A DNA stretch of 64,000 bases from Rhizobium etli CFN 42. GTDB taxonomy: Bacteria; Pseudomonadota; Alphaproteobacteria; Rhizobiales; Rhizobiaceae. The DNA lies in the NCBI RefSeq assembly GCF_000092045.1, contig NC_007761.1:2359001-2423000 (forward strand), written 5' to 3'. The notes under the pieces were generated by a model. That model saw only the letters and a list, made by a program, of their open reading frames with translations. It made no database searches and was not told the origin of the DNA. Positions 2,635 through 40,761 of the stretch are shown in pieces (positions within the stretch are counted from its first letter, which is position 1; each line of letters begins with the position of its first letter). The position numbers and the translations under genes are program-made.

Positions 2635-5600
2635 TCACTGGAATTCGAAAATCTGCCGGAAGACGCCCGGGGCGATGATCGACAGCGGATTGATCTGCAG
2701 GTTCGGCTGATCGAACTTGCCGGTGAGCTTAAAGGTGATGCCGATCAGGCCGCGGTCGCTTCCATTGCCGAGGATGACGCCGATCAGAGGCAGTTCGGCA
2801 AAGAGGCGATTGAGGCCATAGGCCGGCATGAAGGTGCCGGTCATATCCATATTGCCCTTGCGGTCGCGCACCACGCCCTGGAAGGTCGCGCCGATCTGGT
2901 CGCCGCGAAGCACGCCGTTCTCGATACCGACCATGCCGTTGCGCGAGACGATGCGGGCAAAGCCGCGCTGGAAGCGTTGCGACGAGGTATCGATGTCGCG
3001 TTTGACCGCCTCATTGAGGCTGCGCTGCTCGTTGCCGACAGGTGTCGAGACGATCGAACGCAGGCGCTGCTCGTTGACGATCGAGAAGCGGCGCACATCG
3101 AGCGAGCCGTCCCACCCGCCCTGCGGCGAAAGCCGGATCGCCAGATTGAGCAGGCCTCCCTGCATGTGCTGATAGAGATCGGCAAAACGCGATACCGCAC
3201 CGGCATCGCCGCTGGTGATATTGACGACACCGCCGTCCTTCATCTGGCTGACGACGGCCTCGCCGCTGTCCGTGATGCCGGAAAAATTCAGTGCCTGCAG
3301 CTTGTCGCCGCGCAGTGACACCTGCGCCTGGAAATTTCCGACCTTCTCGTCGTTGAAGCCGACGACATTTTTCAGCTTGGCGCGCACCGACACGCCGGTA
3401 TTGTCGCCATCGCCGTCCTCGCCGCCCTCCGAGCCCGCTTTCAATCGCGCGATGACCGGCCGCGCATCGGCGCTGTCGCCGGAAACGGAGACGTCGAAAT
3501 TGCCCTTGCTGCGCTTGACCGACAGGGCGAAATCATCGAGCGAGGAGAGCCTGACGCTGTCGAAATCCGCCGAGATAAGACCGGTCTTGCCGACAACAAG
3601 CGATCCGCTGGCGCCGAAGCCATCACCCTTCAGCCGGAAATTCTTGATCTCGGTATTCTCGGGCGGGCCGGACATCTCGAATTCGGCGGAGGCGGCAATG
3701 CCGCTGCCTTTCGACCAGCCGATCCAGGGCAGGTCGAGCATCGATTTGGTGAGATCGAGCTGAACGTCTTGTCGGTCGTCGTCGATCCGCGTCAGCACCA
3801 TCTTCAGGTTGCCCCTGACGATATCGGAAAGCCCGGGCATCACCTTGCTGCGCTCATCATCGGAGAGCGTGGCCGTAATCACGCGCTGCCGCTGCACACC
3901 AGACGACGCCTCGACCGGCTCGGTCAGATCGATGTCTGCGGGAATGCCGTCGATCTCCCCCTTGGCGTCAAGCGTGATCTGCTTCGGATCGCCATTCAGC
4001 ATGCCGCTGACATTGCTGATCGTGCGGCCGGAAAACGGCTTGGCAAGATCGACGTCAGCGAGCTTCATGGCGGCCTTCCACTCGGCCGGCGGCGGGTTTT
4101 GCGACGACAGCAGTCCGAAATGCGCCTTCACATTCGCGTCGATGTGCCCCTTGAAATCGTCGGGCGTAAAGCCGGCGCGCTGCAGCACCCGGATTGGTTT
4201 GTAGGTCAGGAGCTCGCCTATGGCGTCCGCCGCGCCTGATACCGCCAGATCGATATCGGCCATCAGCGGTTTGTCGTAGGCGGACGGTATGACGAACGTT
4301 CCCTGCCCGAGTGCGACGGACCGGCCGGAGGGGAAATAGGACATGCCGCTCTTGATCAAAATCGTTGCAACGGGCCCGGTCAGGTCGAAATGCGCCGCCG
4401 TATCGCGGACCGGCGGAATATCGCCCGCGACGTTCATCCGCGCGCCGGCAATATCGAAGCCGATGCGGATCTGATTGGCATCGAGCTTTAATCCCCTGCC
4501 CCCGGCTGCCTCGTCAAGCCGACCGAAGGGGATGAAGACGGAGATGGCCGCGTCGGTGACAGTGCCGCCGAAGAGATTGCCGTGCACCCATGTGCGCACC
4601 TTCGGCGCCATCCAGAACGGCCAGAGCTGCTTGATCGCCGTCGTCTGCAGCTCTCTGGATTGGCCGGCAAAGCTGATTTCCGGCGATTTATCGCCGAGCC
4701 TGACGTGCAACGCCCCGTAAAGCGCGCCGAGCGGGCTGGAGACAGTCATGTTGGGAAAGAGGAATTCCCGGCCGGCGACCATATAGCGTCCGGTCGCCTG
4801 GATGTCGAAGGCAACAGGCTGTTCGCCGGACCCGCTCGGGGCGGCGGTGCCGCCGCTGACGAGCAGATCGATGCCGAAGCCCTTGCCGGCTTTGGGATCG
4901 AGTTTGTCGAGATCGATCAGCGCGCCATTGAGGGGCAGCGTGGTTGCGCCGAACCGGAGATTCGATTTAGTGATCTCGACTGTCTGCTTGATGAAGTCAT
5001 AGGCCAGATTGATTTGCCCGCCCGACAGCTCCTGCGGATCGCCGTCGGCATAGATCAGACCGGGATCGACGTCGATCGTCGCCGCGAGGGACGGCTCGGC
5101 GCCATCGCGCGCCCTCGTGGCCGACACCGTCAGGTCGGCAAAAGTGGTAAGCCCCTGCCGTATCACGCCCTGGTCGTTGCGTTTCAGCGTAAACGGCGTG
5201 AGGTTCGCATGCTTGAGCGTCGCCACCACCTTCGACACCTGGCCGTCTTCCTTCTCGGCCAGCACGTCGAGTTCCGCCACCTCGCCATTAAGCGCAACCT
5301 CCCCTCTCAATTGCAGCGAGGATGGCCCGCCATGAGCGAACACCAGATTGTCGACGACGAGCGACAGCGGGCCGTTCGCCGTATCGGCAAGCTTGATGTC
5401 GATGCCGGAGATGCGCACGGAATTCGTCGAACCGCGCGCCACGATGCTGTCGAACATGTCGAGTTGCTCGAAGATCGTCTCCATCGCCGCCGGCATGGCG
5501 TCGATGCGCAGATCGTCAAGCTTGACCGGGTTGCCGGAGGGCAGAAGCGAAGTGTCGAGTGCGATATCCTCCGCTTCGATATCCGCAACGGCAATCCGGC

Positions 5601-6033
5601 CGCGGAAAAGCTGCAGCGGATCGAGGCCCAGGCGCACCGAACCCGTCGTCGACAGGTGCTCACCGCTCCTCTGGTCGATCATATTGACGTTGCGCGCTTC
5701 CAGCGCCAGTCGGAAGTCGGAGGTGAAACGGATAACGGTGGAGCCGACTTCGGCGCGGTAACGCGGTCCCGCCACGCCATCAAGCGCCGCCTGCGCCTGC
5801 TGAGACAGCGGCTTATCGAACATGCCGCTTTCGATGGTGAACACGATGGCGGCAAGAATAAGGAGAATCAGTCCGAGGAAAACCGACGTCAGCTTCGCCG
5901 TCCGGCGCATCGGCGAACGCGGCGGCGGGCAATGAACGATGATCGGATCCTCGGCCTGAGCGGACGGCAAGCGGTCCAGCGCAACGATATCCTTCTTGCG
6001 AAACGTGACCTTTTCGCCGCGGATGGCTGACAT
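2635..6033 (-). CDS. AsmA/DUF3971 (YhdP-like) envelope protein
   Basis: This 1132-residue protein has a basic cytoplasmic N-terminus (~40 residues), one transmembrane helix (~residues 46-68, FLGLILLILAAIVFTIESGMF) and a long periplasmic part rich in beta-strand-like alternating segments. The C-terminus LSIIAPGVFRQIFEF is typical of the AsmA-like C-terminal domain of YhdP/DUF3971 proteins. Members of the AsmA/TamB superfamily are thought to bridge the inner and outer membranes and help move phospholipids or keep the outer membrane intact. That role is known for the family, not shown here. GAGGG lies 5 bases before the ATG. It is divergent from bcp and probably transcribed alone. Confidence 0.8.
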   Translation of the reverse strand: MSAIRGEKVTFRKKDIVALDRLPSAQAEDPIIVHCPPPRSPMRRTAKLTSVFLGLILLILAAIVFTIESGMFDKPLSQQAQAALDGVAGPRYRAEVGSTVIRFTSDFRLALEARNVNMIDQRSGEHLSTTGSVRLGLDPLQLFRGRIAVADIEAEDIALDTSLLPSGNPVKLDDLRIDAMPAAMETIFEQLDMFDSIVARGSTNSVRISGIDIKLADTANGPLSLVVDNLVFAHGGPSSLQLRGEVALNGEVAELDVLAEKEDGQVSKVVATLKHANLTPFTLKRNDQGVIRQGLTTFADLTVSATRARDGAEPSLAATIDVDPGLIYADGDPQELSGGQINLAYDFIKQTVEITKSNLRFGATTLPLNGALIDLDKLDPKAGKGFGIDLLVSGGTAAPSGSGEQPVAFDIQATGRYMVAGREFLFPNMTVSSPLGALYGALHVRLGDKSPEISFAGQSRELQTTAIKQLWPFWMAPKVRTWVHGNLFGGTVTDAAISVFIPFGRLDEAAGGRGLKLDANQIRIGFDIAGARMNVAGDIPPVRDTAAHFDLTGPVATILIKSGMSYFPSGRSVALGQGTFVIPSAYDKPLMADIDLAVSGAADAIGELLTYKPIRVLQRAGFTPDDFKGHIDANVKAHFGLLSSQNPPPAEWKAAMKLADVDLAKPFSGRTISNVSGMLNGDPKQITLDAKGEIDGIPADIDLTEPVEASSGVQRQRVITATLSDDERSKVMPGLSDIVRGNLKMVLTRIDDDRQDVQLDLTKSMLDLPWIGWSKGSGIAASAEFEMSGPPENTEIKNFRLKGDGFGASGSLVVGKTGLISADFDSVRLSSLDDFALSVKRSKGNFDVSVSGDSADARPVIARLKAGSEGGEDGDGDNTGVSVRAKLKNVVGFNDEKVGNFQAQVSLRGDKLQALNFSGITDSGEAVVSQMKDGGVVNITSGDAGAVSRFADLYQHMQGGLLNLAIRLSPQGGWDGSLDVRRFSIVNEQRLRSIVSTPVGNEQRSLNEAVKRDIDTSSQRFQRGFARIVSRNGMVGIENGVLRGDQIGATFQGVVRDRKGNMDMTGTFMPAYGLNRLFAELPLIGVILGNGSDRGLIGITFKLTGKFDQPNLQINPLSIIAPGVFRQIFEFQ

Positions 6034-6080
6034 GCGCCCTCGGGCTCTCCCTTAAATTAAAGAATTGAACCCGGCCATGC

Positions 6081-6107
6081 TGGACGGGTTTCCGTCCACT
6101 ATATAAT
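6081..6107 (+). promoter_or_regulatory. Candidate bcp promoter with hairpin
   Basis: A perfect TATAAT (6102-6107) lies about 50 bases before the bcp start. It is immediately preceded by a perfect inverted repeat, TGGACGG (6081-6087) / CCGTCCA (6092-6098) with a GTTT loop, which sits where the -35 element would be. No good -35 hexamer is visible, so the site may need an activator. Confidence 0.4.
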
Positions 6108-6158
6108 TCGGGGACAGAGAGTGTCATCCACAAACCCGGCAAAAGAAAGGTTTCCCCA

Positions 6159-6632
6159 ATGGCGGTTCCCGGCATCGGTGCCCTGGCCCCCGACTTCAAC
6201 CTCCCCCGCGATGGCGGTGGCCGTGTCTCGCTATCCGATTTTCACGGCAGGCCGCTCGTCCTGTTCTTCTATCCCAAGGACGACACGACAGGCTGCACGG
6301 CCGAATCGCTGGCTTTTACTGCGCTGGCGCCGGAGTTTGAAGCAGCAGGTGCTGCCGTTATCGGCATGTCGCCCGATTCGGCAGCCTGCCACGACAAGTT
6401 TATCAAAAAGCACCGTCTTTCGGTCGCGCTCGCCTCGGATGAAGACAAGACGACATTGCAGGCCTATGGTGTCTGGAAGGAAAAGAGCATGTACGGCCGC
6501 AACTTCATGGGCGTCGAACGCACGACTTTCCTTATCCGTCAGGATGGCACGATCGCGACAATCTGGCAGAAGGTGAAAGTACAGGGCCATGCCGAGGCCG
6601 TCCTCGAGGCCGTCAGGAATCTGGCCGCGTGA
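6159..6632 (+). CDS. bcp: Thioredoxin-dependent peroxiredoxin (BCP/PrxQ)
   Basis: This 157-residue cytoplasmic peroxidase reduces hydrogen peroxide and organic hydroperoxides using thioredoxin. The peroxidatic Cys46 sits in FYPKDDTTGCTAE. The resolving cysteine usually found five residues later is Leu51 here. The only other candidate is Cys77 in SPDSAACHDKF, at a position like the alpha-3-type resolving cysteine of some PrxQ proteins, so this is probably an alpha-3-type PrxQ rather than the classic alpha-2 type. Its stop overlaps the GTG start of the DUF455 gene by four bases (GTGA), so the two are likely translationally coupled. Confidence 0.93.
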   Translation: MAVPGIGALAPDFNLPRDGGGRVSLSDFHGRPLVLFFYPKDDTTGCTAESLAFTALAPEFEAAGAAVIGMSPDSAACHDKFIKKHRLSVALASDEDKTTLQAYGVWKEKSMYGRNFMGVERTTFLIRQDGTIATIWQKVKVQGHAEAVLEAVRNLAA

Positions 6633-7456
6633 CCGGTGATCTCGCGATAAACTCGCTGCGCGGCGGCGCTATAGACGCCATCCGCTCGGCCGACCTCGAC
6701 CGCAAGACCGCCCTTGCGCAGGAAAGCGCCACCCGCTGGTTCGCCCGCCGGGTGTCGCTGCGCTCACCGCTCGACGCTGCCCTGCCGGAGAGGCCCGGCC
6801 GTCCCGATAAACCGGTGCTGACGCCGCCGACCCAGGTGGAAAAGCGCTCGTTGCACACGCTAAAAGGCCGGATCGCCCTCTTCCATGCCATTGCCCATAT
6901 CGAGCTCAACGCCGTCGATCTCGCGCTCGATATCGTGGCGCGATTTGCAACAGAGCCGGTGCCGAATTCCTTCTTCGACGGCTGGATGCAGGTCGCCTTC
7001 GAGGAGGCGAAGCATTTCCGCATGGTGCGCGCCCGCCTGAACGATCTCGGCGCCGATTACGGCGATCTTCCCGCCCACGACGGGTTGTGGCAGGCCGCCC
7101 ATTCGACGCGCAACGACCTGACGGCAAGGCTGGCGGTCGTGCCACTGATTCTCGAAGCCCGTGGTCTCGACGTCACGCCGTCGCTGCAGGCGAAGATGCG
7201 TGAGACCGGCGATCTCGAAAGCGCGGCGGTGCTCGATGTCATTTACAACGACGAGAAAGGTCATGTCGCCGTTGGCGCCAAATGGTTCCGCTTCCTCTGC
7301 GCGCGGGAGAAACGCGATCCGGCAAAGGCCTTTCAGGAGCTGGTGCGCACCAATTTCCGCGGGCCGCTGAAGCCGCCTTTCAACGATCTTGCCCGCGCCG
7401 AAGCCGGGTTGACGCCATCCTTCTACCGCTCCCTGGCATCGATCAGCCATGCCTGA
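6629..7456 (+). CDS. DUF455 ferritin-like protein
   Basis: This 275-residue protein starts at GTG and overlaps bcp by four bases. It carries the carboxylate/histidine pattern of a ferritin-like four-helix bundle: HAIAHIELNAVDLALD (~87-102), FEEAKHF (~125-131) and YNDEKGHVAVG (~209-219), which would bind a di-iron centre. This matches the DUF455 family, whose substrate is unknown. MiaE-like tRNA hydroxylases have a related fold, but the motifs fit DUF455. Coupling to a peroxiredoxin suggests a link to oxidative stress or iron handling, which is inference from context. Confidence 0.85.
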   Translation: MTGDLAINSLRGGAIDAIRSADLDRKTALAQESATRWFARRVSLRSPLDAALPERPGRPDKPVLTPPTQVEKRSLHTLKGRIALFHAIAHIELNAVDLALDIVARFATEPVPNSFFDGWMQVAFEEAKHFRMVRARLNDLGADYGDLPAHDGLWQAAHSTRNDLTARLAVVPLILEARGLDVTPSLQAKMRETGDLESAAVLDVIYNDEKGHVAVGAKWFRFLCAREKRDPAKAFQELVRTNFRGPLKPPFNDLARAEAGLTPSFYRSLASISHA

Positions 7457-29938: not shown

Positions 29939-30976
29939 TTAGATCAGGCTGATACGCTGGCCCGCTGCGGCGGATCGCTTCACTGCGTCGATAACCTTTA
30001 AGGTTTCTAGTCCCTCACGTCCGCTGACCAACGGTGCTTCCTCGCCTCTGATGACCCTGCAAAACTGGCGTATCTGCAGGATTAGTGGATCCTCGTTCTC
30101 GACTTCGGCGCTATAACATTCGAACGGTTCCATCCAGCTCCTTTTGCCCGGATTGCTCCACATGTTGAGTGACGGCACTGACAGCGACCCGTGGGTGCCG
30201 CCGATCATGTAGCAAGCCTCCTCAGTTTTAGGGTAAGCGGGGTTTTCGCCAGTCGTCATCTCCCAACTCCATGGCGCGACGACGGAATCCGAAACGGAAG
30301 CAGTGCCGAGAATTCCGTTCTTGAACTCGATGAGGATCACCGCGGTCTCCTCAACGGCGTTTCCGCGAACTGCGTTGGATTCGATCGCCTGGACCGCCGT
30401 GATATCCCCGAATAAGTAGCGAAGGTTGTCGATGTCGTGGATCAGATTGAGAAAGACTGGTCCCGCGCCGCGTTCGCGGCGCCAGGGAGTGTCGAAGTAT
30501 TCCTCCGGCTTGAACAGCCAGAACATTGCATTCACGATCAATATTCGCCCGAGCTTTCCGCTTTCGATGATCTGTTTAGCTTTTTGCATCATCGGATTAT
30601 GTCGGCGATGATGTCCGGTCAGCAGCGGAACGCCTTTGGCCTCGGCCATCCCAACGAGCCTCTCGCCAGCGGCAATATCGTCGACGATTGGCTTCTCGAT
30701 CAATGCCGGGATGCCAGCCTCTACGGCCTCAAACCCATTTCTGACGTGGATCTGGTTAGGCGTCGCGATGATGACGCCGTCAGGGCGCGCTGCGGCGACC
30801 ATCTCAGCGAAGTTCGAAAACCATTTGACGCCAACCTCGCTGGCGATCGCCTGTCCAACCGGGCTCGGGTCGACGACAGCGACAAGCTCCGCCGTCGTTT
30901 CGTCCAGCACGTGTTTGATGTGGCGCTTCCCGATAAGTCCCGCGCCGAGGACCGCCAGTTTGACCGGAGGAGCCAT
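29939..30976 (-). CDS. Gfo/Idh/MocA family oxidoreductase
   Basis: The 345-residue protein has an N-terminal Rossmann fold (LAVLGAGLIGKRHIKHVL), an EKPIVDD motif (the EKP signature near residue 94) and a C-terminal alpha/beta domain with the VFLNLIHDIDNLRYLFG His motif. Such enzymes oxidise or reduce sugars, inositols or cyclic polyols with NAD(P). In this operon of quinate/shikimate-type genes it may act on a hydroaromatic polyol such as quinate, but that is inference. It is the last gene of the leftward operon, three bases after aroQ, with GAAGGA eight bases before the ATG. Its stop is close to the left edge of the island. Confidence 0.85.
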   Translation of the reverse strand: MAPPVKLAVLGAGLIGKRHIKHVLDETTAELVAVVDPSPVGQAIASEVGVKWFSNFAEMVAAARPDGVIIATPNQIHVRNGFEAVEAGIPALIEKPIVDDIAAGERLVGMAEAKGVPLLTGHHRRHNPMMQKAKQIIESGKLGRILIVNAMFWLFKPEEYFDTPWRRERGAGPVFLNLIHDIDNLRYLFGDITAVQAIESNAVRGNAVEETAVILIEFKNGILGTASVSDSVVAPWSWEMTTGENPAYPKTEEACYMIGGTHGSLSVPSLNMWSNPGKRSWMEPFECYSAEVENEDPLILQIRQFCRVIRGEEAPLVSGREGLETLKVIDAVKRSAAAGQRISLI

Positions 30977-30979
30977 TTG

Positions 30980-31429
30980 TCAGTCCTTCTTCGGCGCCGT
31001 GAGCATCGTCGCGACGCGGCGGATTCCGAGCCGATAGCCCTCCGTACCAAGACCGGTGATGATGCCGTCGGCGCGGTGGGAAACGAAGGAATGATGACGG
31101 AAGCTTTCGCGCTTATACATGTTGGAGATATGGATCTCGATCACGGGACCTTCGAACGTGTTCAAGGCGTCGAGGATCGCAAGCGATGTGTGCGTGAATG
31201 CGGCCGGATTGATGACGATACCGGATCCGTCTTCGCGCGCTTCGTGGATCCAGTCAATGATTTCATATTCACGGTTGCTCTGGTGGAAACGGATCTCGTG
31301 GCCGAGTTCCGAGGCCAGTTTCCGGCAGTCTGCCTCGACATCGGCCAGCGTCTCGTGACCATAGATGTGAGGCTGACGCTTGCCGAGCAAATTGAGGTTT
31401 GGGCCATTAAGAACGTAGATCAGGCTCAT
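30980..31429 (-). CDS. aroQ: 3-dehydroquinate dehydratase, type II
   Basis: The 149-residue protein is a complete type II dehydroquinase: [19 protein letters not shown] with Arg18 and catalytic Tyr23, [10 protein letters not shown] (Asn74), catalytic His100 in IEIHISN and the RESFRHHS segment. It interconverts 3-dehydroquinate and 3-dehydroshikimate. In a catabolic operon with a quinate/shikimate dehydrogenase the likely direction is towards 3-dehydroshikimate for breakdown rather than for aromatic amino-acid synthesis. A housekeeping copy is expected elsewhere. It lies between the CHMI-type gene (31-base gap) and the Gfo/Idh gene. Confidence 0.92.
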
Positions 31430-31460
31430 TGCGATTCTCCTTGTGAGGGCGTTGCCAAGC

Positions 31461-31829
31461 TTAGGCGAACGCTATTTCCTGGAATGCGAAACTCGGATCG
31501 GACTCGTAAAGATCGGCCCGCAGCCCCAGCCGGCCTGCTTGCAGCGCGGTGGCTGCGACAGCGCGCGCAGCTTCGAGGACCCCCTTCAACAACTCCCGCT
31601 TCGTTTCTGCCGGCCGGCCAGGCGCCATGCGCACGATTATCTGGATGAAGTGATTTTCCGGATGCTCGTCGCCGACGCAGGAGAAGGTCGCCTCCCTGGC
31701 GAAGGTCCGCACGGCAGTGGGCTTCACCACGCCTCCGTCGCGCACCCGGCAGTGGACCGCTCTGGTCAATTCGTCGATCGCCACCCGTTCGGCAGCACCT
31801 CGGCTGTAGTCGATGATGATGTGCGGCAA
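31461..31829 (-). CDS. 5-carboxymethyl-2-hydroxymuconate isomerase-like tautomerase
   Basis: The 122-residue protein starts MPHIIIDYS, so Pro would be exposed as the catalytic N-terminal residue after Met removal, as in the tautomerase superfamily. The length and the later segments (LLRAVH-like [45 protein letters not shown]) fit 5-carboxymethyl-2-hydroxymuconate delta-isomerase (HpaF, PF02962) rather than short 4-oxalocrotonate tautomerases. HpaF moves a double bond after ring cleavage of homoprotocatechuate. Here the substrate would be the muconate-type product of the ring-cleavage gene in the divergent operon. AGGAGG directly precedes the ATG. Confidence 0.82.
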
Positions 31830-31844
31830 GGCATGTCCTCCTGG

Positions 31845-32705
31845 TCAGGCTGGAGCTCGGCACAATTCTTCGAAGTGACGCGACATACGATCCGCATCCG
31901 GCTTTACACCCGTGAACAGCTCAAAGGCCGCCGCAGCCTGGAACACGGTCATGCCGCCGCCCGGCAAGGTCCTGCACCCCTTCTTCTCTGCCAGGGCCAG
32001 AAGTTCCGTCACCAGCGGCATGTAGACGATATCGGCGACCCAGTGACGTGGATGAAGCCATTCCGGTTCGATCGGAAGACCCGGATGACTTCGCATGCCC
32101 GTCGGCGTAGCGTGAATCAACCCGTCGGCCGAAGCGAGCGCCGCACCGACTTCCCTGACCGGTTGCGCGCAGGTTCTTGAAAAGCGTCGGTTGAGCTGAT
32201 CGGCAAGCGCGGCGGCGCGATTTGTGTCCTGGTCGAAGATCGAGAGCATCCTGATACCGAGCTTGATGGCCGCATGCGCGACGGCGACCCCTGCGCCGCC
32301 TGCGCCGAGCAGGACGGCATGAGTTTTAGCGACACCGGGCATACCGCGCTCGAAGTTCTTGTAGAAGCCATACCAGTCCGTATTGTGCCCGATCCGCTTC
32401 CCGTCCCGAAGCACGACGGTGTTGACTGCTCCGAGCATCTCGGCGTCCTCGGACAGGCTGCTAAGATGAGCGATCACAGCCTGCTTGCACGGGTGCGTAA
32501 TGTTGCTTCCTGCGAAGCCGCGGTCTTCGAGTTCTACGAGCAATTCAGGCAGGGCAGAAGCGGGCAAACCGCGCTCGGCGAAATCGACGAGTTCGTAATG
32601 GTAATCCAGCTCCAAGTGCCACGCCTCGGTTTCGTGCAGGGCGGGCGACTTCGACATCTGGATGTCGGCCCCGATGAGACCGACGAGGAATTTGTTGTTA
32701 TCCAT
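31845..32705 (-). CDS. Quinate/shikimate dehydrogenase (AroE/QsuD family)
   Basis: The 286-residue protein has the AroE layout: SKSPALHE (shikimate-binding Ser), GSNITHPCKQ with catalytic Lys74, GAVNTVV and GHNTD with Asp110, then the nucleotide loop GAGGAGVAVAHA. The residue after the second strand is acidic (FDQDTNRAAAL, Asp158) and the NRT-type NADP-binding cluster of biosynthetic AroE is missing, so NAD+ is the likely cofactor, as in catabolic QsuD enzymes. It would oxidise quinate or shikimate to the 3-dehydro compound. It lies 15 bases before the CHMI-like gene. Confidence 0.87.
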   Translation of the reverse strand: MDNNKFLVGLIGADIQMSKSPALHETEAWHLELDYHYELVDFAERGLPASALPELLVELEDRGFAGSNITHPCKQAVIAHLSSLSEDAEMLGAVNTVVLRDGKRIGHNTDWYGFYKNFERGMPGVAKTHAVLLGAGGAGVAVAHAAIKLGIRMLSIFDQDTNRAAALADQLNRRFSRTCAQPVREVGAALASADGLIHATPTGMRSHPGLPIEPEWLHPRHWVADIVYMPLVTELLALAEKKGCRTLPGGGMTVFQAAAAFELFTGVKPDADRMSRHFEELCRAPA

Positions 32706-32723
32706 TTCGATAACCCAATCAGC

Positions 32724-33497
32724 TCAATGATGTGCGAGGATCTCGCCAAGGAAAGCCTTGGTGCGCTCATGCTTCGGAGACTTGAAAAAGACCCCGGGCT
32801 CGGCCTCTTCGATGATCTCGCCGGAAGCCATGAAGATGACCCTGTCTGCAACCTGACGGGCGAAGCCCATTTCATGCGTGACGCAGATCATGGTCATGCC
32901 GTCGCGTGCGAGACCGATCATCGTATCCAGCACTTCCTTGACCATTTCCGGATCGAGCGCCGATGTCGGTTCGTCGAACAGCATCGCCTTGGGCTCCATG
33001 CAAAGGGCTCTGGCAATGGCGACACGCTGCTGCTGCCCACCGCTGAGTTGCGCGGGATACTTCTCCGCCTGATCAAGGATTCGAACCCGTTCGAGGTATT
33101 TTCTCGCCAGCCTCTCGGCGTCGGCCCGGCTGGTTCCGCGGACCCTCATGGGCGCAAGCGCGCAGTTCTGCAGCACGGTCATGTGCGGGAACAAATTGAA
33201 GTTCTGGAACACCATCCCGACTTCGCGCCGAATGGCGTCAACCGCCTTGCTCGTGCCGTCGAGCGACTGCCCGTCGACGACGATCCTGCCTTCCTCGATC
33301 AACTCGAGAGCGTTGATGCAGCGGATCAACGTCGACTTGCCGGAACCCGATGGCCCGCAAAGGACGATCTTTTCACCTTTGCGAACCGACAGGCTGATGT
33401 TTTTCAACGCATGGAAGGAGCCGTACCATTTCCCAACCTTTTCGAGGGATATCAATGTCGACTGATCTTTAGCGGAACTGAGCACGGCGCCCTCCAT
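32724..33497 (-). CDS. Polar amino-acid-type ABC transporter ATPase
   Basis: The 257-residue protein is a GlnQ/HisP-type ATPase: Walker [25 protein letters not shown], Walker [14 protein letters not shown] and the H-loop VTHEMGFA. It powers import with the two permeases and binding protein upstream in the same operon. The ATG at 33497 has a poor ribosome-binding site; a GTG at 33485 is preceded by GGAGG at ideal distance and may be the real start (253 residues). The gene starts 7 bases after the binding-protein stop. Confidence 0.93.
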
Positions 33498-33504
33498 GGA
33501 TGCT

Positions 33505-34329
33505 TTACTTGACGGTGAACGGGATGTTGGCGATGGTTTCCGGGAACGTCGGCAGATCGATCTTCATCCACTTCTTGGTGATGGCTGCAAGTTCGCCGTT
33601 AGCCTTGATCTTGTCGAGGAAGGCATTGACGGCCTCGTTCCAGTCCTTCTCGCCCAGTCGCGTCCCGACGCCATTGTAAGTCGTAAGGAAGTCGATCTTG
33701 CGCTCGTAGGTGCCTGGGCTGGCGGCATCCAGCCGCTGTCCGTAGAACATGTTGCCTCCAACGGCCTTGACCTGTCCGGAGACCAGCGCCTGAATGGTAG
33801 AGGCGTCGTCGTCGAAGCGGCGGACGGTGGCCGTCGATCCCACAGCATCGGTAATGGCCTTGTCCTGCGAGCTGGACTTCGGCACGCCGATTTCCCACCC
33901 GGCAACATCGGCAGGCGTTTTCGCGGTATCGGCCTTTGCCGCATAAAGCGAGATCGTGTTTGCCGCGTATGGCTTGCTGTACTGGATCGATTTGGCGCGC
34001 TCTTCCGTCATTGCCATCGTGGCGAACAAGATATCGACCTTGCCGGTGGTCAGGGCCGGAATGCGATTGGCGACGGCGAGCGGCTGGAACTGGACCTTAA
34101 CTCCGAGTTCCTTGGCGAAGAGTGTCGCGACATCGGCGTCGAACCCGTCCTGCTTGCCGCTCGAGTCGACGAAGCCCCATGGCGCGTTGTCGCCCTGAAT
34201 GCCGACGACGATCGTGCCCTTGGCCTTGATCTCCTCGACGGTCGCCGCGGAAGCCACTGCGGCGCCTACTGTGGCGAAGGCGGCCGTAGCCAGGGCCATT
34301 CCAAGAAATTGTCTGCGATTGTTATGCAT
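33505..34329 (-). CDS. ABC transporter substrate-binding protein (SBP_bac_3, Tat signal)
   Basis: The 274-residue protein starts at ATG 34329 (or two codons earlier), with GGAGGAGA upstream. The N-terminus [19 protein letters not shown] carries an RRxFLG twin-arginine motif, so it may be exported folded by Tat, with cleavage near ASAATVE. The mature part is a type II periplasmic-binding domain: [56 protein letters not shown]. Operon context suggests an acidic hydroaromatic or aromatic ligand rather than an amino acid. Confidence 0.9.
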
Positions 34330-34373
34330 TTCCATTCTCCTCCTCTGTGGTCTTTGCTTCGGGCGAAGCAAGG

Positions 34374-35024
34374 TTAGCGGACGGCTCTCGCCATCCGTTT
34401 TTCGAGGCCGCTCCCGATGTGGGAGAGAGGCCAACAAATGATGAAGTAGACCATTCCGACGATCCCGAAGACGAGCAGTGGGCGGTAGGTCTGGTTCGAA
34501 ATGATCTGTCCGGCACGGGTCAGCTCGATAAAGCCGACAATTGCTGCAAGCGATGTGCCCTTGATGAGCTGAACGAGAAATCCGATGGTTGCGGGCATCG
34601 AAATCTTCAGCGCCTGTGGCAGGACAACGTCCTTCATTCGGGAGATGTAATGCAGCCCGAGTGCGTTCGCGGCTTCGGTCTGGCCCTTCGGAACGGCTTC
34701 GATCGAACCGCGCCAGATCTCGCCCAGGAAGGCGCTTGCATGCAGGGTGAACGCGATTGCCACAGCGATCCATGCATTGACGTCGACGCCCAATAGCGCG
34801 ACGCCGTAGTAGACGACGAAGAGCTGCATCAGGAGCGGCGTGCCCTGGAAGAGCGCGATGTAACCCGACGATACGAAACGTGCGAAGCGGTTCTTCGACG
34901 TGCGCACCAGAGCGATCAGGATTCCGAATACACCTCCTCCGACGAAGCCGATGAAGGCCAGCAGCACGGTCCACTTCAAACCCTGCAAGAGGAAGAACAG
35001 CTCGTTTTCGCCGATGGGACCCAT
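34374..35024 (-). CDS. ABC transporter permease (HisM/GlnP type)
   Basis: The 216-residue permease has about five transmembrane helices. The EAA loop reads EAANALGLHYISRMKDVVLPQAL, contacting the ATPase, and the N-terminal helix FLLQGLKWTVLLAFIGFVGG is typical of the HisMQ family. It pairs with the next permease gene, nine bases upstream, to form the membrane channel. Confidence 0.93.
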   Translation of the reverse strand: MGPIGENELFFLLQGLKWTVLLAFIGFVGGGVFGILIALVRTSKNRFARFVSSGYIALFQGTPLLMQLFVVYYGVALLGVDVNAWIAVAIAFTLHASAFLGEIWRGSIEAVPKGQTEAANALGLHYISRMKDVVLPQALKISMPATIGFLVQLIKGTSLAAIVGFIELTRAGQIISNQTYRPLLVFGIVGMVYFIICWPLSHIGSGLEKRMARAVR

Positions 35025-35033
35025 GAACGCCTC

Positions 35034-35702
35034 CTATCGGGTCGGGTAGTTGAAGTAGGAACGGGAGATAAGGGCGAAGATGCCCATCATCAGGCTCGAG
35101 ATTACGAGGTAGATTGCGGTCACGCTGAAATAGACCTCGAAGCTTCGGAAAGTGTCGGATTCGATTCGTTGGGCCGCAGAGGTCAACTCGTAGGCGGCGA
35201 TCGAAGTGCAGACCGAAGTCGTCAAGGTCAGCATCACGAACTGGCTGGTCAGGGACGGATAAATCGCCCGCAGAGCCGGCTTCAGAACGATCAGCCGGAA
35301 CACATCGGCCTTGTGCAAGCCCAACGCGAAACCTGCCTCAACCTGTCCCTTGTTCACGCTTTCCACGCCGCCTCGAATAATCTCGATCGCATAAGCGCCG
35401 CCATTGATCCCCAGCGCGATAATAGCGGTAGCGGTGGGGTTCAATCGGATGCCCATGAGCGGAAGTGCGAAGTAGATGAAGAATATCTGCACCAGGAACG
35501 GTGTGTTTCGGACAATCTCGACGAAGGCAATTACCGGAGATTGAACGAGTTTGTTCTTGGATGTTCTTGCAGCAACGCCGAGAATACCGATGGCGAGCGC
35601 AAGGATCATTCCGGCAACCGCGAGACCGAGCGTCCCAAGCGAACCCCAAAACAATTCCGGGGCGCGGTCGAAGACCGCACCAAAATCGAACGTATAACCC
35701 AT
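35034..35702 (-). CDS. ABC transporter permease (HisQ/GlnP type)
   Basis: The 222-residue permease has about five transmembrane helices and the EAA loop VEAGFALGLHKADVFRLIVL. The segment IVRNTPFLVQIFFIYFALP is the family hallmark. It is the first transporter gene of the leftward operon, after the TIM-barrel gene, with GGAGGGAGGAAG upstream of the ATG. Confidence 0.93.
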   Translation of the reverse strand: MGYTFDFGAVFDRAPELFWGSLGTLGLAVAGMILALAIGILGVAARTSKNKLVQSPVIAFVEIVRNTPFLVQIFFIYFALPLMGIRLNPTATAIIALGINGGAYAIEIIRGGVESVNKGQVEAGFALGLHKADVFRLIVLKPALRAIYPSLTSQFVMLTLTTSVCTSIAAYELTSAAQRIESDTFRSFEVYFSVTAIYLVISSLMMGIFALISRSYFNYPTR

Positions 35703-35750
35703 ATGTTGACTTCCTCCCTCCGGCGCGACTCACGCCTCGCCGGCGCCGGA

Positions 35751-36575
35751 TCAGCAATCCGGCCCGAATAATCCTTCGGCCTTGTCGTACAGATTCTTCA
35801 AATGCGCCTCAGGCGGGGCGGACCCCGTGAGCGGCACCTCAACCGAGATCGCAGCGCAGCCATCGAACGCTGCGATGAGTTCCTTTAACGGCAGTTCGCC
35901 CTCTCCCGGCGCGAACCGCCCGCCTCTAGCTTCAGCGATCATTTCCTCTGTCGTCACCGGCGCCGGTCCAGCGACATCGCACAACTGAACGTGCTTTACC
36001 CAGCGGATCTCGGTCGCCAGCGTGGCGAGCGTGCCGCCATTCCTGAAGAAATGTACTCCGTCCACGAGGGCGCCGGCATTGCGGGCGCCACTCGACTTCA
36101 CAATACTGACGCTGTCTTGGAAGGTTCTCGTCACCCGCCAACCCATGTTCTCGACATCGACAGCCAAGCCGTAGCGGTCCGCAAGGCCGCAGAGATCCGA
36201 AAAGTTCGATACCAATCTGGATTGATCCGGATCATCTCCGCAGACACTGAGCCGGCGTGCTCCAATATTCGCAGCCGCGGCGACTATGGCCTCCATCGAC
36301 GACGCGTCGAACGAGGGGTCGATTACGAAAAACTCGATATCGAAAACCTCGACGCCCTCACCGGCAAGCACGAATTTCAGCTCGCCTGCAGCCGGACCAC
36401 CGACAGGCAACTCGTAGTAGGGCGCACCAGGGAACGCCGGATGCAGCCTGAGCCCGATCCTGGAGAACCCCGCGCGCGCTGCGGCCTTCGCAAACTCCAC
36501 GGGAGGCAGCAATATCGATGAAAAGTGCGCGACACCAATCGGGGGCGCCGATTTCGATGTTGCGGCGGCCATCAC
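35751..36575 (-). CDS. Sugar phosphate isomerase/epimerase-like TIM-barrel protein
   Basis: The 274-residue protein has the xylose isomerase-like TIM-barrel pattern (AP_endonuc_2 superfamily): AKAAARAGFSRIGLRLHP, VDVENMG (metal-binding Glu near ~140), GALVDGVHF and WVKHVQLCDVAGP, with final IAAFDGCAAISVEVPL. This fold includes 3-dehydroshikimate dehydratases (QuiC/AsbF type), which make protocatechuate. With dehydroquinase and quinate/shikimate dehydrogenase in the operon, a dehydratase role is attractive but not shown; an epimerase is equally possible by motif. Its start overlaps the GntR stop by four bases. Confidence 0.78.
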   Translation of the reverse strand: MMAAATSKSAPPIGVAHFSSILLPPVEFAKAAARAGFSRIGLRLHPAFPGAPYYELPVGGPAAGELKFVLAGEGVEVFDIEFFVIDPSFDASSMEAIVAAAANIGARRLSVCGDDPDQSRLVSNFSDLCGLADRYGLAVDVENMGWRVTRTFQDSVSIVKSSGARNAGALVDGVHFFRNGGTLATLATEIRWVKHVQLCDVAGPAPVTTEEMIAEARGGRFAPGEGELPLKELIAAFDGCAAISVEVPLTGSAPPEAHLKNLYDKAEGLFGPDC

Positions 36576-37306
36576 ACGATTCCCTTCGTCGCGAGATGGT
36601 TGCGCAGATTGGTGCCGGTGCGATGAATGTGCTGGCGGAGCTTGTCGCAGGCATAGTCGGCATCACGCGCGACTGCGCCCTGGGCAATCTCGCTATGCTC
36701 CTGCCCGACGTTGCGATCGCCCGACGTACGGATCAGGAAGACGCGGCGATATCGGTCGTTGAGATTGAGCAGAAGACTGCAAAAATGAAGTAGCAGAGGT
36801 TTCCCGCAGCCCGAGATCAGCGTCAGGTGGAACTCGCGGTGAAGCGCCTCCCAGTGCTCCAGCGTTTCAGGATGCGCGGCGTCGCGCTCCGTACGGTTTA
36901 GACGATGAAGCGCACGCATGACGTTGCCCTCCCAATCGACGTCTCCGAGACGCATGGATTCACGCAGCGCGAACACTTCGAGTTCTTCGCGTAGGCTGGT
37001 GACCTCTTCGAGATTAGCCAGGGAGATCGGCGCGACGCGATAGCCTCTATTGTCCTGAAACTCGACCAGACCGTCTGAAATGAGCCGGGCCAGACCCTCC
37101 CGCAACGGGCTCAGGCTGACATTGAAAATCTTCCGCGCCTTGTCGAGATTGATCTTGCTGCCCGCTTCCAGTTCACCGGAGATGATCGCCTCCCGAAGGC
37201 GCCATGCGAGCTGACTGCCGATGGTGTTCTTGCCATCGTCGAGGAAGCCGGCTGACGGTGCGTCTTCTGTCAACGGCCCAAGTGAGCTGTCGTCGGCCGA
37301 GTCCAT
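36572..37306 (-). CDS. GntR/FCD-family transcriptional regulator
   Basis: The 244-residue protein has a GntR winged helix (~30-98: LREAIISGELEAGSKINLDK, LSPLREGLARLISDGLV) and a C-terminal FCD domain with the metal-binding pattern LREELEVFALRES, WEALHREFHLTLISGCG and the later HSEIAQGAVARD and QHIHRTG. FCD regulators bind small acids and usually release DNA on binding. The ATG at 37306 has GGAGGAAAG directly upstream. It is the first gene of the leftward operon and faces the dioxygenase operon across two palindromes, which makes it the likely regulator of both. Confidence 0.92.
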   Translation of the reverse strand: MDSADDSSLGPLTEDAPSAGFLDDGKNTIGSQLAWRLREAIISGELEAGSKINLDKARKIFNVSLSPLREGLARLISDGLVEFQDNRGYRVAPISLANLEEVTSLREELEVFALRESMRLGDVDWEGNVMRALHRLNRTERDAAHPETLEHWEALHREFHLTLISGCGKPLLLHFCSLLLNLNDRYRRVFLIRTSGDRNVGQEHSEIAQGAVARDADYACDKLRQHIHRTGTNLRNHLATKGIV

Positions 37307-37336
37307 CTTTCCTCCAAAAGCGATCGCAAAGTTTCG

Positions 37337-37369
37337 ATAATCGATATGATAAACGATTATTGTTGTCAA
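37337..37369 (-). promoter_or_regulatory. Leftward promoter with GntR operator
   Basis: Read on the minus strand, TTGACA (37369-37364) and TATCGA (37346-37341) are 17 bases apart. ATAATCG (37337-37343) and CGATTAT (37354-37360) form an inverted repeat over the spacer and -10 element. A bound repressor would block the promoter. Confidence 0.65.
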
Positions 37370-37506
37370 CTTGAATACGTGAGAAGTCGCTAGATATCTA
37401 TGTCTGCGTCCTGACAAAAACTATTTTATGATGTAATTACAATACGTTAAATCAAAATCAATCACGCTTCCTCCTCTGCCAAGAGCATTGAGCGCTCGGT
37501 CTCCGC

Positions 37507-37534
37507 TTGACAGATAATCGATTATTATTATAGT
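37507..37534 (+). promoter_or_regulatory. Rightward promoter with GntR operator
   Basis: TTGACA (37507-37512) and TATAGT (37529-37534) are 16 bases apart. The perfect 12-bp palindrome ATAATCGATTAT (37514-37525) lies wholly in the spacer. It shares the ATAATCG half-site with the leftward promoter, suggesting one regulator controls both. Confidence 0.7.
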
Positions 37535-37559
37535 CGAACCCCGTCAGGGAGGTAGCCTT

Positions 37560-38453
37560 ATGGTAATTAGAACCGAGAGCGAGTTGACACCCGCCGTTCT
37601 CGCCGCGATGAACCGCACTGCGGATCCACGGCTGCGGAATATCCTCGTTGCAATGGTGAAGCACCTCCACGCATTCGTGCGGGAGGTCAGGCTGTCGGAA
37701 GTCGAGTTTCGCGAAGCGACCGCCATCCTCAACGAAATTGGGCAATTGCAGACGGACAGCCACAATGAATTCGTGCTCATGGCCGGATCCCTTGGCGTCT
37801 CGTCGCTTGTGTGCCTGCTCAACAACGGCGACAACGGGCAGACCGAGACATCACAGTCGCTGCTCGGGCCCTTCTGGCGGCTCAATTCTCCGCGGGTCGA
37901 GAACGGCGGAACCATCGTCAGGTCGGAAACGCCGGGAACACCCTTGTTCGTCCACGCGAAGGTGGTTGATCGGGCAGGTAAGCCCATCCAGGGCGCCGAG
38001 ATCGACGTATGGCACGCCTCTCCTGTCGGCCTTTACGAGAACCAGGATCCTGATCAGGCGGAAATGAACCTGCGTGGCAAGTTCACCACCGATGACGAGG
38101 GTCGGTTCTGGTTTAGAACGGTCAAGATGGTGGGCTATCCCATCCCTGTCGACGGAGTCGTAGGTCGGCTTCTCCGAGCCCAAGGCCGCCACCCTTACCG
38201 ACCTGCGCATCTGCACGCCCTGATCTTCAAAGAGGGATACAAAACCCTCATCTCCCAGGTCTTCGACCCGAGCGATCCGAACATTGATTCCGATGTGCAG
38301 TTCGGCGTCACCGCGGCTTTGACAGGCGACTTTGTCCGTCATGACGAGCCGCACCCGTCCAACACGGACGTCACTGGCCCGTGGTTTTCACTCGACTACA
38401 CCTACGTCATGGAGCCGGGCGAGGCCACCCTGCCGCGTCCCCCGATCAAGTAA
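37560..38453 (+). CDS. Intradiol ring-cleavage dioxygenase (hydroxyquinol 1,2-dioxygenase-like)
   Basis: The 297-residue protein has a helical N-terminal dimerisation domain and a C-terminal beta-sandwich with the Fe(III) ligands Tyr159 (VGLYENQ), Tyr193 (VGYPIP), His217 and His219 (RPAHLH). The VGYPIPVDG segment resembles hydroxyquinol 1,2-dioxygenases more than classical catechol enzymes. It would open a catechol- or trihydroxybenzene-type ring between two hydroxyls to a muconate. The TSQSLLGPFW segment before the sandwich is also typical. GGGAGG precedes the ATG. It is first in the rightward operon under the palindromic promoter. Confidence 0.9.
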   Translation: MVIRTESELTPAVLAAMNRTADPRLRNILVAMVKHLHAFVREVRLSEVEFREATAILNEIGQLQTDSHNEFVLMAGSLGVSSLVCLLNNGDNGQTETSQSLLGPFWRLNSPRVENGGTIVRSETPGTPLFVHAKVVDRAGKPIQGAEIDVWHASPVGLYENQDPDQAEMNLRGKFTTDDEGRFWFRTVKMVGYPIPVDGVVGRLLRAQGRHPYRPAHLHALIFKEGYKTLISQVFDPSDPNIDSDVQFGVTAALTGDFVRHDEPHPSNTDVTGPWFSLDYTYVMEPGEATLPRPPIK

Positions 38454-38474
38454 CGAAATCAGCAGAGCTAAATT

Positions 38475-39257
38475 ATGATTACCGAAAAGGAACGCCAGGC
38501 GGCAGCCGACGCGCTGCTGAAGGCAGAAACCGAACGCAGGCCCATCGTCCAGCCAAGCAAGACATATCCGCATTTGGAACTTGAAGACGCATATAAGATA
38601 CAAGCGCTCTGGGCGCAGGCACGGATTGCAAACGGCGCACGGATCGCGGGTCATAAAATTGGACTGACATCGCGAGCGATGCAGATGGCCTCGAAAATGA
38701 CGGAGCCCGATTACGGCGTGATCCTCGACGACGCTCTCTATAACGACGGAGCGCAGATCAGGGCGGAGCTCTTCATCAAGCCTCGTCTGGAAGTCGAGCT
38801 CGCCTTCGTAATGGGCGAAGATCTCGAGGGGCCAAGCGCTCGGATCTATGATGTCATGCGCGCGACTGAATTTGTCGTTCCTGCGCTTGAGATCATCGAC
38901 TACCGAACCGAGGTGCCCAGAGCGATCACCGATACTATCGCCGACAACGCCGCCTTTGGAGCGATCGTCGTGGGCGGCCGCATTATCCGGCCCATGGATA
39001 TTGACATCCGCTGGGTCGGCGCGACGCTTTCGAAAAACGGCATCATCGAGGAATCGGGTGTTTCCGCAGCTATAATGGGGCATCCGGCCGCGGGTATCGC
39101 CTGGCTCGTGAACAAGCTCCATGCCGTCGGAGGCGGCTTGAAGAAGGGCCAGATCGTGCTTGCCGGCTCGTTCACCCGCCCCGTGGACATCGTCAAGGGC
39201 GATGTCATCCAAGCCGACTATGGTCCGGTCGGCTCCATCGGCGTCTCGTTCGTGTGA
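38475..39257 (+). CDS. 2-oxo-hept-4-ene-1,7-dioate hydratase-like (HpaH family)
   Basis: The 260-residue protein matches HpaH along its length: [41 protein letters not shown] (metal-binding Glu residues), [26 protein letters not shown] and [15 protein letters not shown]. These metal-dependent enzymes add water to a 2-oxo-enoate to give a 4-hydroxy-2-oxo acid. The exact substrate here is unknown; the expected product feeds the next gene, an HpaI-type aldolase. It lies 21 bases after the dioxygenase. Confidence 0.9.
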
Positions 39258-39264
39258 GGCGCCG

Positions 39265-40029
39265 ATGGAACTTCCCGTCAATCACTTCAAACGGAAACTC
39301 AGAGCCGGTAAAAGCCAGATCGGTCTCTGGTGCGGCCTTCCCGGAAGCTACGCGGCAGAAATCGTCGCGCCGGCGGGCTTCGACTGGGTGCTGTTCGATA
39401 CCGAGCACTCTCCAAGCGACGTCCTCACCGTCCTACCGCAGTTGCAGGCGGTCGCGCCTTACGACGTTTCTCCGGTCGTACGCCCGGCAAGCAACGATCC
39501 CGTGCTGATCAAACGCTTTTTGGATATTGGCGTCCAGACGCTCCTCGTTCCCTATGTGCAGAACGAAGAGGAAGCGAAGGCAGCGGTCGCCGCCATACGG
39601 TATCCGCCGCACGGGGTTCGCGGGGTCTCCGCCTTGACGCGCGCCACCCGCTTCGGGCGGGTACCGAACTACGCGCGGATTGCCGAACAGGAGATCTGCC
39701 TGCTTCTGCAGATCGAGACCAGAGAGGCGCTCGGTCGGCTAGAGGCCATCGCAACGGTCGAAGGCGTCGACGGCGTCTTCATCGGCCCCGCCGATCTGGC
39801 AGCTAGCTTCGGTCATCCCGGTCAACCGGGGCATCCCGAGGTGGTCGCGGCGATCGAAGACGCGATCGGGCGCCTGAAAATTCTTGGAAAGCCGGCAGGC
39901 ATCCTCACGCCGGACGAGACGTTTGCAGCCCGCTGTATTTCGCTCGGGACGTCGTTCACCGCCGTTGGCGTAGACATCGCCCTCCTCGCGAGAGGATCCG
40001 AGGCGCTCGCAGCCCGATTTGCAACTTAG
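39265..40029 (+). CDS. HpcH/HpaI family class II aldolase
   Basis: The 254-residue TIM-barrel protein has the HpaI/GarL pattern: [30 protein letters not shown] (metal and base residues), [31 protein letters not shown] (Glu metal ligand) and [14 protein letters not shown]. Such enzymes split 4-hydroxy-2-oxo diacids into pyruvate and an aldehyde. After an HpaH-type hydratase the likely substrate is the 4-hydroxy-2-oxo diacid. It starts 7 bases after the hydratase, GAGGCGCCG before the ATG. Confidence 0.92.
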
Positions 40030-40041
40030 AAGTTCGCGCCG

Positions 40042-40761
40042 ATGTCTACCCGAGAGAAAGTTCTGTCCGAGATAGCGCCGGCGGGCGTAATCCGGGCCGC
40101 CGTCAACATGTCGAATGCGGCGTTGGTCCGTTGGGATGATCAGGCCGGCGCCCTGGTCGGTCCAAGCGCTCAGATCGGTCACAAAATTGGCGAGCAACTG
40201 GATCGCGGCCTGTTGCTGATCCAATACGGCTCAGCCGCGGACATCCTCGCCGCTTCGGATCGTGGCGAGTGGGACATTGCTTTTATTGCCTCGGACCCCT
40301 CAAGAGCCGACCGGTTTTCCTTTTCACCTCCCTACATCTCCGTCAGAGCGACCTATTTGGTGCCGGAGGGTTCAGCGTTTCGAACGGTCGGAGACGTCGA
40401 TGCTGAAGGAGTGCGGATAGCCTCCGCAAGAAGCGCCGCCTATACGAAACAGCTCGAGCGTATTCTTGAAAAAGCCACTGTCTCGCATACTGACAGCCCG
40501 GCAGCTGCAATCGATCTTCTTGTCGGGTCGCGGTGCGACGCGGCTGCAGGATTGACCGAGTTCCTCGTTCAGAGGTCGAAGCGAACTTCCGGCTTCCGGC
40601 TGGTGGAGGGAGCGTTCTCTGAAATTCCCCAGACGATCGCCGTGCACCGAAGATCCATTCATGCCTCAGCCTTCTTTGCGGATTTCGTACGCCGTCTGAA
40701 CGCAAGTGCTGGAGGATACCATGACGTGGCCGGCCACGGTGCCGCACTCACCCCATTTTGA
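40042..40761 (+). CDS. Periplasmic-binding-fold protein without signal peptide
   Basis: The 239-residue protein has the SBP_bac_3 fold pattern: GVIRAAVNMSNAALVRWD, AQIGHKIGEQLD, GEWDIAFIASDPSRADRFSF, PPYISVRATYLVPEGS, but the N-terminus MSTREKVLSEIAPAG has no signal sequence or membrane segment. It is therefore predicted to stay in the cytoplasm, where it could bind a pathway intermediate as a sensor or carrier, or it may be a binding protein with a lost signal peptide. It is the last gene of the rightward operon, 12 bases after the aldolase. Confidence 0.75.
   Translation: MSTREKVLSEIAPAGVIRAAVNMSNAALVRWDDQAGALVGPSAQIGHKIGEQLDRGLLLIQYGSAADILAASDRGEWDIAFIASDPSRADRFSFSPPYISVRATYLVPEGSAFRTVGDVDAEGVRIASARSAAYTKQLERILEKATVSHTDSPAAAIDLLVGSRCDAAAGLTEFLVQRSKRTSGFRLVEGAFSEIPQTIAVHRRSIHASAFFADFVRRLNASAGGYHDVAGHGAALTPF

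Follow-up and report, generated by a model that had tools for sequence, protein, structure and literature searches.

A block of 14 genes in Rhizobium etli CFN 42 (positions 29939-40761 of the window, the 64-kb stretch of DNA that was analysed, on contig C2 of genome G000) joins shikimate/quinate-type genes to an intradiol ring-cleavage dioxygenase (dox), an HpaH-type hydratase and an HpaI-type aldolase. The block may encode a gallate route that starts from shikimate/quinate-type acids and runs via dox, HpaH and HpaI; we adopt this reading tentatively, at a confidence slightly short of even. The genes lie between bolA and grxD as a pair of divergent operons that include a GntR regulator. The leftward operon carries, in order, gntR, a TIM barrel gene, two ABC permeases, a binding protein, an ATPase, an AroE/QsuD-like dehydrogenase, a CHMI-like tautomerase (chmi), a type II dehydroquinase and a Gfo/Idh/MocA-type dehydrogenase (gfo). 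The rightward operon consists of dox, hpaH, hpaI and a gene of the binding-protein fold (sbp2). Pfam and NCBIfam scans covered the ten non-transporter proteins; inspection by eye served for the four ABC genes. Every gene called in an earlier note on this DNA is present at its place, and the scans bore out the families named there (dehydroquinase, CHMI, intradiol dioxygenase, HpaH, HpaI, TIM barrel and regulator). The label of a QsuD-like dehydrogenase had been put on the wrong gene: that at 29939-30976 is Gfo/Idh/MocA by Pfam, and the QsuD/AroE-like gene is at 31845-32705. As had also been noted, no lactonising enzyme, maleylacetate reductase or extradiol dioxygenase was found among the ten block proteins scanned.

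Related loci were sampled by a scan for relatives of dox, in which 168 of 201 candidate stretches were confirmed and the best 80 retained. These loci are mutually related and were picked by dioxygenase similarity. Neighbour genes were counted by tblastn with identity thresholds, over the loci with enough flank (72, 78 or 79). hpaH was found directly after dox (same strand, within 300 bp, locus flank of at least 1 kb) in 70 of 79 loci and hpaI in 64 of 78. The TIM barrel and gntR were each present in 69/78 loci, dehydroquinase in 59/72, the ABC ATPase in 57/72, shikimate dehydrogenase of either type in 55/72, sbp2 in 53/78, gfo in 47/72 and chmi in 46/72; a TRAP permease was found in 0/72 loci at the threshold used. 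Since hpaH, hpaI, the TIM barrel, gntR and dehydroquinase recur across related loci, the arrangement is not a chance one, and the search of other genomes proposed in the earlier note finds dox-hpaH-hpaI with shikimate/quinate genes again. Among the best 80, the closest named loci by dioxygenase are those of R. aethiopicum, R. esperanzae and R. hidalgonense, and dox-hpaH occurs in, among other genera, Rhizobium, Sinorhizobium, Mesorhizobium, Shinella, Aureimonas, Bosea, Methylobacterium and Paracoccus. The nine loci without hpaH are L083, from a Hyphomicrobiaceae metagenome-assembled genome, and eight labelled Bradyrhizobium (L096, L097, L098, L099, L103, L107, L109 and L110). bolA and grxD flank the cluster in 4 of 80 loci, all near relatives, and L071 shows grxD; as these flanks were not found in the stretches of the remaining loci, the genes of the cluster seem to be mobile together.

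The gene set is present again in three more distant genomes (L111, L113 and L114), whose dox is 59-61% identical. L114 has gntR, the TIM barrel gene, dehydroquinase, dox, hpaH, hpaI and sbp2 in a one-strand run with short gaps, L113 has this arrangement plus gfo, and L111 is a shorter version. Both L113 and L114 also have, next to the set, a TRAP transporter and a shikimate dehydrogenase of another kind. Because these two loci keep the set with TRAP instead of ABC, the association of shikimate/quinate genes with dox, the hydratase and the aldolase outlives a change of transporter.

The PDB chains closest to dox are PnpC 3n9t (193 bits) and the hydroxyquinol dioxygenase 1tmx (192 bits); none of the NCBIfam intradiol models scored over its cut-off. 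Columns were compared in a 115-row alignment, with 1tmx numbering. R218 and Y164, Y197, H221 and H223, the last four of which we take to be the iron ligands, are retained in the aligned dox rows. The clade signature relative to 1tmx is D83G, V84S and V251Q: 88 of the 115 rows have G83, S84 and Q251, and one further G83 row ends before column 251. The remaining 26 rows are all D83, and 25 of them have V251 (L118_18480 has Ile). Asp83, presumably a substrate contact in hydroxyquinol dioxygenase, is therefore replaced by Gly in 89/115 rows, the dox of the window included; columns 83 and 251 are both presumed to line the pocket. The G83/Q251 enzymes are monophyletic in a tree of 45 rows (support 100/96). 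V113R occurs in the clade and also in its sister group. The Bradyrhizobium enzymes without hpaH look derived, as they are nested in the tree among hpaH-linked ones.

HpaH-family hydratases and HpaI-family aldolases need a 2-oxo-enoic acid, and pathway chemistry therefore points to an intradiol substrate with a third vicinal hydroxyl, that is, a vicinal triol (pyrogallol or gallate). With such a triol, an intradiol enzyme and the known extradiol gallate dioxygenase give the same product because the bonds broken are equivalent. Gallate is preferred to pyrogallol since no decarboxylase was recognised among the 14 block genes, and since those neighbours that are informative encode enzymes for carboxylated rings or for 4-oxalomesaconate (OMA).

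Gene content, conservation, the clade and the candidate operator were observed; every substrate and reaction of the following scheme we infer. Plant acids of the shikimate/quinate type would be imported and catabolised under GntR control. The AroE-like and Gfo dehydrogenases, together with the dehydroquinase, would oxidise and dehydrate them to 3-dehydroshikimate, which would become an aromatic with three vicinal hydroxyls, most probably gallate, with no ring oxygen lost. The single-chain dioxygenase would open gallate to 4-carboxy-2-hydroxymuconate, the enol of OMA, and the CHMI-like tautomerase (GalD in some relatives) would interconvert the tautomers. Addition of water by the HpaH-type hydratase would give 4-carboxy-4-hydroxy-2-oxoadipate, which the HpaI-type aldolase would split into pyruvate and oxaloacetate. 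The scheme is weakest in the formation of gallate and in the part it gives to the TIM barrel. The 'intradiol-to-aldolase' route of the earlier note is retained in outline, with the conserved dox-HpaH-HpaI unit, the lack of a recognised lactonising enzyme in the block, the pocket changes and the lack of an HpaE above cut-off in the genome in its favour. Pyrogallol as its specific substrate is not upheld, and malonate semialdehyde as its end product gives way to pyruvate and oxaloacetate, which gallate would yield. The CHMI-family tautomerase (PF02962) is not core, as its frequency among the loci shows, and the CHMI equivalog model gives it 18.1 against a cut-off of 215.

In the R. etli genome, the OMA tautomerase GalD gave no match at E 1e-90 and the LigK-type aldolase none at E 1e-70. 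HpaE gave 21 matches, none above 638.35 (best 481.7); a homoprotocatechuate role is therefore less likely. Matches to the maleylacetate-reductase-like enzyme of L226 were only 28-31% identical. One LigB-domain protein (109 bits) was found elsewhere in the genome by a check for a class III extradiol gallate dioxygenase, the HpaD models being left out of the genome scan. This protein aside, the block is the only candidate found in the genome for this chemistry.

Neighbouring genes in other loci bear on the substrate. L096, which lacks hpaH, has after dox a TctC-type gene, a LysR gene, galD (536 vs 440), a PF04909 amidohydrolase that we take to be LigJ, and ligK (406 vs 304.5). With the GalD of L096 as query, homologs were found in five other loci of the 80 (L043, L044, L074, L076 and L077). 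Three of them scored 505.6, 509.9 and 517.9, over the OMA tautomerase cut-off of 440; those of L074 and L077 run into the locus end and were left out of scoring. GalD is paired with a LysR gene; the pair is on the left side of the cluster in four of these loci and on the right side in L043. In G138 it lies ~9 kb from dox with apparent transposase genes between, and 85 of the 199 genomes sampled from the family have it. About 0.1 such proximities would be expected by chance in 80 loci of 21 kb, assuming about one copy per 5-6 Mb; the loci being related, this is a guide and not a P value. DesA/LigM-type O-demethylases convert syringate to gallate and vanillate to protocatechuate. Two of them lie 12-16 kb from dox in G851 (Boseaceae), one a LigM equivalog (831 vs 580) and the other DesA/LigM-like and below both cut-offs (512 vs 800, 456 vs 580). 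In this genome folD and purU come after dox-hpaH-hpaI, on the opposite strand, and then a gntR with the same palindrome as in the window, an ABC transporter, a PobA-like gene and a methylenetetrahydrofolate-reductase-like gene. A second copy of dox (G199; L172:8456-10167, Bradyrhizobium jicamae) stands beside P450, ferredoxin and MFS transporter genes; hpaH there matches as two pieces that overlap, and its frame is apparently broken.

The best PDB match of the AroE/QsuD-like protein is the quinate/shikimate dehydrogenase 3jyo, which we take to be QsuD. This dehydrogenase and the dehydroquinase of the block score over the cut-offs of family models, and their enzyme roles are predicted. The TIM barrel scores 20.1 against 1200 with NF042435, a model that describes a longer two-domain protein.

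Several observations weigh against the gallate route. GalD is near the cluster in 6 of 80 loci, counting L096, and these are non-independent; the O-demethylases of G851 are separated from dox by their 12-16 kb and by other genes. dox lies between pcaF and pcaHG in seven Bradyrhizobium loci and adjoins pcaF in L099 and L103, surroundings that are a beta-ketoadipate setting, and in Bradyrhizobium the presence of LigK does not follow dox. The reference substrates of HpaH and HpaI are dicarboxylates without a third carboxylate, and the column comparison identified no carboxylate-binding residue in dox, R113 being present in the sister group as well. According to a passage of PMC9204233, a catechol 1,2-dioxygenase accepts pyrogallol and does not accept gallate. 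By fold, the proteins nearest to the TIM barrel are QuiC1, whose product is protocatechuate, and two others. gfo occurs also in clusters with QuiC-like proteins (labelled by length and N-terminal similarity); it was undetected in 25 of 72 loci and thus cannot be the obligatory gallate-forming step.

Part of this evidence would fit a TIM barrel that is an ordinary dehydroshikimate dehydratase; the quinate genes would then supply protocatechuate to the pca pathway of the genome, and dox-hpaH-hpaI would act on a separate, co-occurring substrate, for example gallate from tannins or syringate. This explanation we consider unlikely. In its favour, besides the match to QuiC1, are a PcaH-like match in the genome at C6:71359 and the lack of dox in the stretches read of the clusters that combine gfo and a transporter with QuiC-like proteins. 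The TIM barrel has 6 of the ten QuiC/QsuB active-site residues set out in PMC7442255, but R64 and S206 are not retained. The one-strand run of L114, and that of L113 with gfo, moreover suggest one pathway.

A route through pyrogallol is quite unlikely in our estimate. A precursor (gallate or other) would be decarboxylated and pyrogallol opened to 2-hydroxymuconate; after the CHMI step, HpaH would give 4-hydroxy-2-oxoadipate, and HpaI pyruvate and malonate semialdehyde. The reference substrates of HpaH and HpaI are nearer to these C6 intermediates, and V251Q puts a polar residue at a column presumed to line the pocket. A passage of PMC9204233 records that pyrogallol can be cleaved in vitro by an intradiol enzyme to 2-hydroxymuconate. 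Against this route are the lack of a recognised decarboxylase and the neighbours that indicate carboxylated intermediates, and among the papers searched none joined 4-hydroxy-2-oxoadipate, aldolase and malonate semialdehyde. That dox makes maleylacetate from hydroxyquinol like its nearest solved relatives, the hydratase and aldolase acting on something else, is highly improbable: the distant L226 does combine a 43% identical dox with a TIM barrel, gfo and a putative maleylacetate reductase, but its dox keeps D83/V251 and falls outside the clade, and the block has no such reductase and the genome only the weak matches given above.

The palindrome ATAATCGATTAT sits in the spacer of a near-consensus promoter, TTGACA-16-TATAGT, between gntR and dox. 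When up to 2 mismatches are allowed, it and ATAAACGATTAT are the sole matches in the window; this count of two alone means little, as 1.19 are expected and 32 of 100 shuffles reach two. The case for an operator rests on conservation, ATAATCGAT being found in 65 of 67 gntR-dox intergenic regions, and we take the palindrome as a candidate GntR operator. L091 likewise has a perfect 12-mer, immediately before the gntR frame, and L217, whose cluster consists of dehydroquinase, gfo and hpaI, has one 22 bp beyond the gntR end. At up to 2 mismatches the palindrome is absent in L113, and beside gntR in L111.

Table 1. Features of the block and its intergenic region (window coordinates).
Feature	Coordinates	Strand	Basis
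gfo, Gfo/Idh/MocA-type NAD dehydrogenase, accessory	29939..30976	-	Pfam PF01408/PF22725/PF02894
Type II 3-dehydroquinate dehydratase	30980..31429	-	PF01220 195 bits; NF003806 219.6 vs cut-off 171
CHMI-like tautomerase; TTG start, Pro after start residue	31461..31829	-	PF02962 65.6 bits vs 26.5
AroE/QsuD-like shikimate or quinate dehydrogenase	31845..32705	-	PRK12549 442 vs 235; PDB 3jyo 220 bits
ABC transporter ATPase, polar amino acid type	32724..33497	-	Read by eye
Exported solute-binding protein of ABC transporter	33505..34335	-	By eye (signal-like N-terminus, start choice); order kept in relatives
ABC permease 1	34374..35024	-	By eye; order kept in relatives
ABC permease 2	35034..35702	-	By eye; order kept in relatives
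AP_endonuc_2 TIM barrel, dehydroshikimate-dehydratase-like	35751..36575	-	PF01261
GntR/FCD transcription regulator	36572..37306	-	PF00392 + PF07729; start chosen by eye
Candidate operator copy ATAAACGATTAT, gntR side	37349..37360	+	One of two window matches at <=2 mismatches
Promoter-like site of dioxygenase operon, TTGACA-16-TATAGT	37507..37534	+	Consensus scan, 11/12
Candidate operator palindrome ATAATCGATTAT inside promoter	37514..37525	+	Motif scan and conservation of ATAATCGAT
Intradiol ring-cleavage dioxygenase (dox), G83/Q251 clade	37560..38453	+	PF00775 + PF04444, pocket columns, tree
HpaH-type 2-oxo-enoic acid hydratase	38475..39257	+	TIGR02312 356.1 vs 351.5
HpaI-type class II pyruvate aldolase, clade motif DTEHS	39265..40029	+	TIGR02311 402.5 vs 368.8
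sbp2, solute-binding-protein fold without recognisable signal peptide (by eye)	40042..40761	+	PF00497 29.2 vs 26.4; predicted fold

The aldolase motif DTEHS is present in 69 of 70 HpaI rows. HpaI relatives (54-59%) were also seen in L216 and L217, in TRAP-gfo clusters with QuiC-like 630-residue proteins; the motif is DTEHS in L217 and DCEHS in L216, and neither dox nor hpaH was found in the stretch read of these loci. Across 21 sequences of sbp2, 16 columns are invariant, R88 among them; judged by sequence and predicted fold, the protein may be a cytoplasmic acid sensor or a (dehydratase-like) enzyme.

Further gene sets were observed around the same families. L164:8367-10259 encodes a single 630-residue protein in which an AP_endonuc_2 TIM barrel is fused to a Gfo/Idh/MocA dehydrogenase. 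L096 encodes, at 5308-7041 and one gene upstream of dox, a ketosteroid/cyclohexenone-type FAD dehydrogenase (PRK12843 832 vs 758) that could aromatise 3-dehydroshikimate to gallate. L226:8126-13875 carries shikimate dehydrogenase, gfo, a SnoaL-like gene, an iron-containing alcohol dehydrogenase (maleylacetate-reductase-like), the 43% dox and the TIM barrel, possibly a hydroxyquinol version of the system. A CoA-transferase-like gene (by eye) stands in L165 beside a shikimate-dehydrogenase set with dehydroquinase, gfo and TIM barrel and no dox, and in L092 beside a shikimate-dehydrogenase-type set with dox and hpaH, which suggests further variants. The sister-group dioxygenases (45-60% identity; L112, L115-L121, L259 and L260) are linked to a short-chain dehydrogenase, to DUF849/BKACE-like and quinone-reductase-like enzymes and, as a rule, to a cupin, all named by eye. 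They mark another apparently uncharacterised intradiol cluster, which could end in beta-keto acid cleavage.

If the gallate route holds, it would mean that gallate is opened by an intradiol dioxygenase and that non-homologous enzymes stand in for all four of the gallate pathway (dioxygenase, tautomerase, hydratase and aldolase) across plant-associated Alphaproteobacteria, and would suggest how rhizobia use carbon derived from shikimate, quinate and tannins. For syringol conversion, a passage of PMC6628648 assigns to future work a dioxygenase that cleaves pyrogallol to a further-metabolisable product. The stronger claim, of a natural oxidative route from a shikimate-type acid to gallate with a dedicated single-chain intradiol gallate dioxygenase and an HpaH/HpaI-type finish, that is, a second, non-homologous gallate pathway converging on the gal/lig intermediates, is doubtful when taken as a whole.

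Compared with known systems, the block would share intermediates and end products with the gal/lig gallate pathway (GalA, GalD, GalB/LigJ and GalC/LigK) if its substrate is gallate. It differs in having an intradiol instead of an extradiol dioxygenase, a CHMI-like instead of a PrpF-type tautomerase, an HpaH-type hydratase in place of GalB/LigJ and an HpaI-type aldolase in place of the RraA-type LigK, and in lying beside shikimate/quinate-type genes. With the homoprotocatechuate (hpa) meta pathway it has in common HpaH and HpaI above the NCBIfam cut-offs and a CHMI-family tautomerase; it has, however, an intradiol enzyme and no recognised extradiol one, in a genome without HpaE over the cut-off. 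With quinate/shikimate catabolism (qsu/qui) it shares the AroE/QsuD-like dehydrogenase, type II dehydroquinase, QuiC-like TIM barrel and transporter, whereas the TIM barrel of the block is single-domain with an altered site, a Gfo dehydrogenase is present, and the genes are linked to an aldolase and to an intradiol enzyme that is single-chain and distinct from PcaGH. Hydroxyquinol 1,2-dioxygenases (1tmx, 3n9t) belong to the same fold family as the dox of the block and share with it R218 and the presumed iron ligands, whereas D83G, V84S and V251Q mark the clade of the block, and V113R is common to this clade and its sister group.

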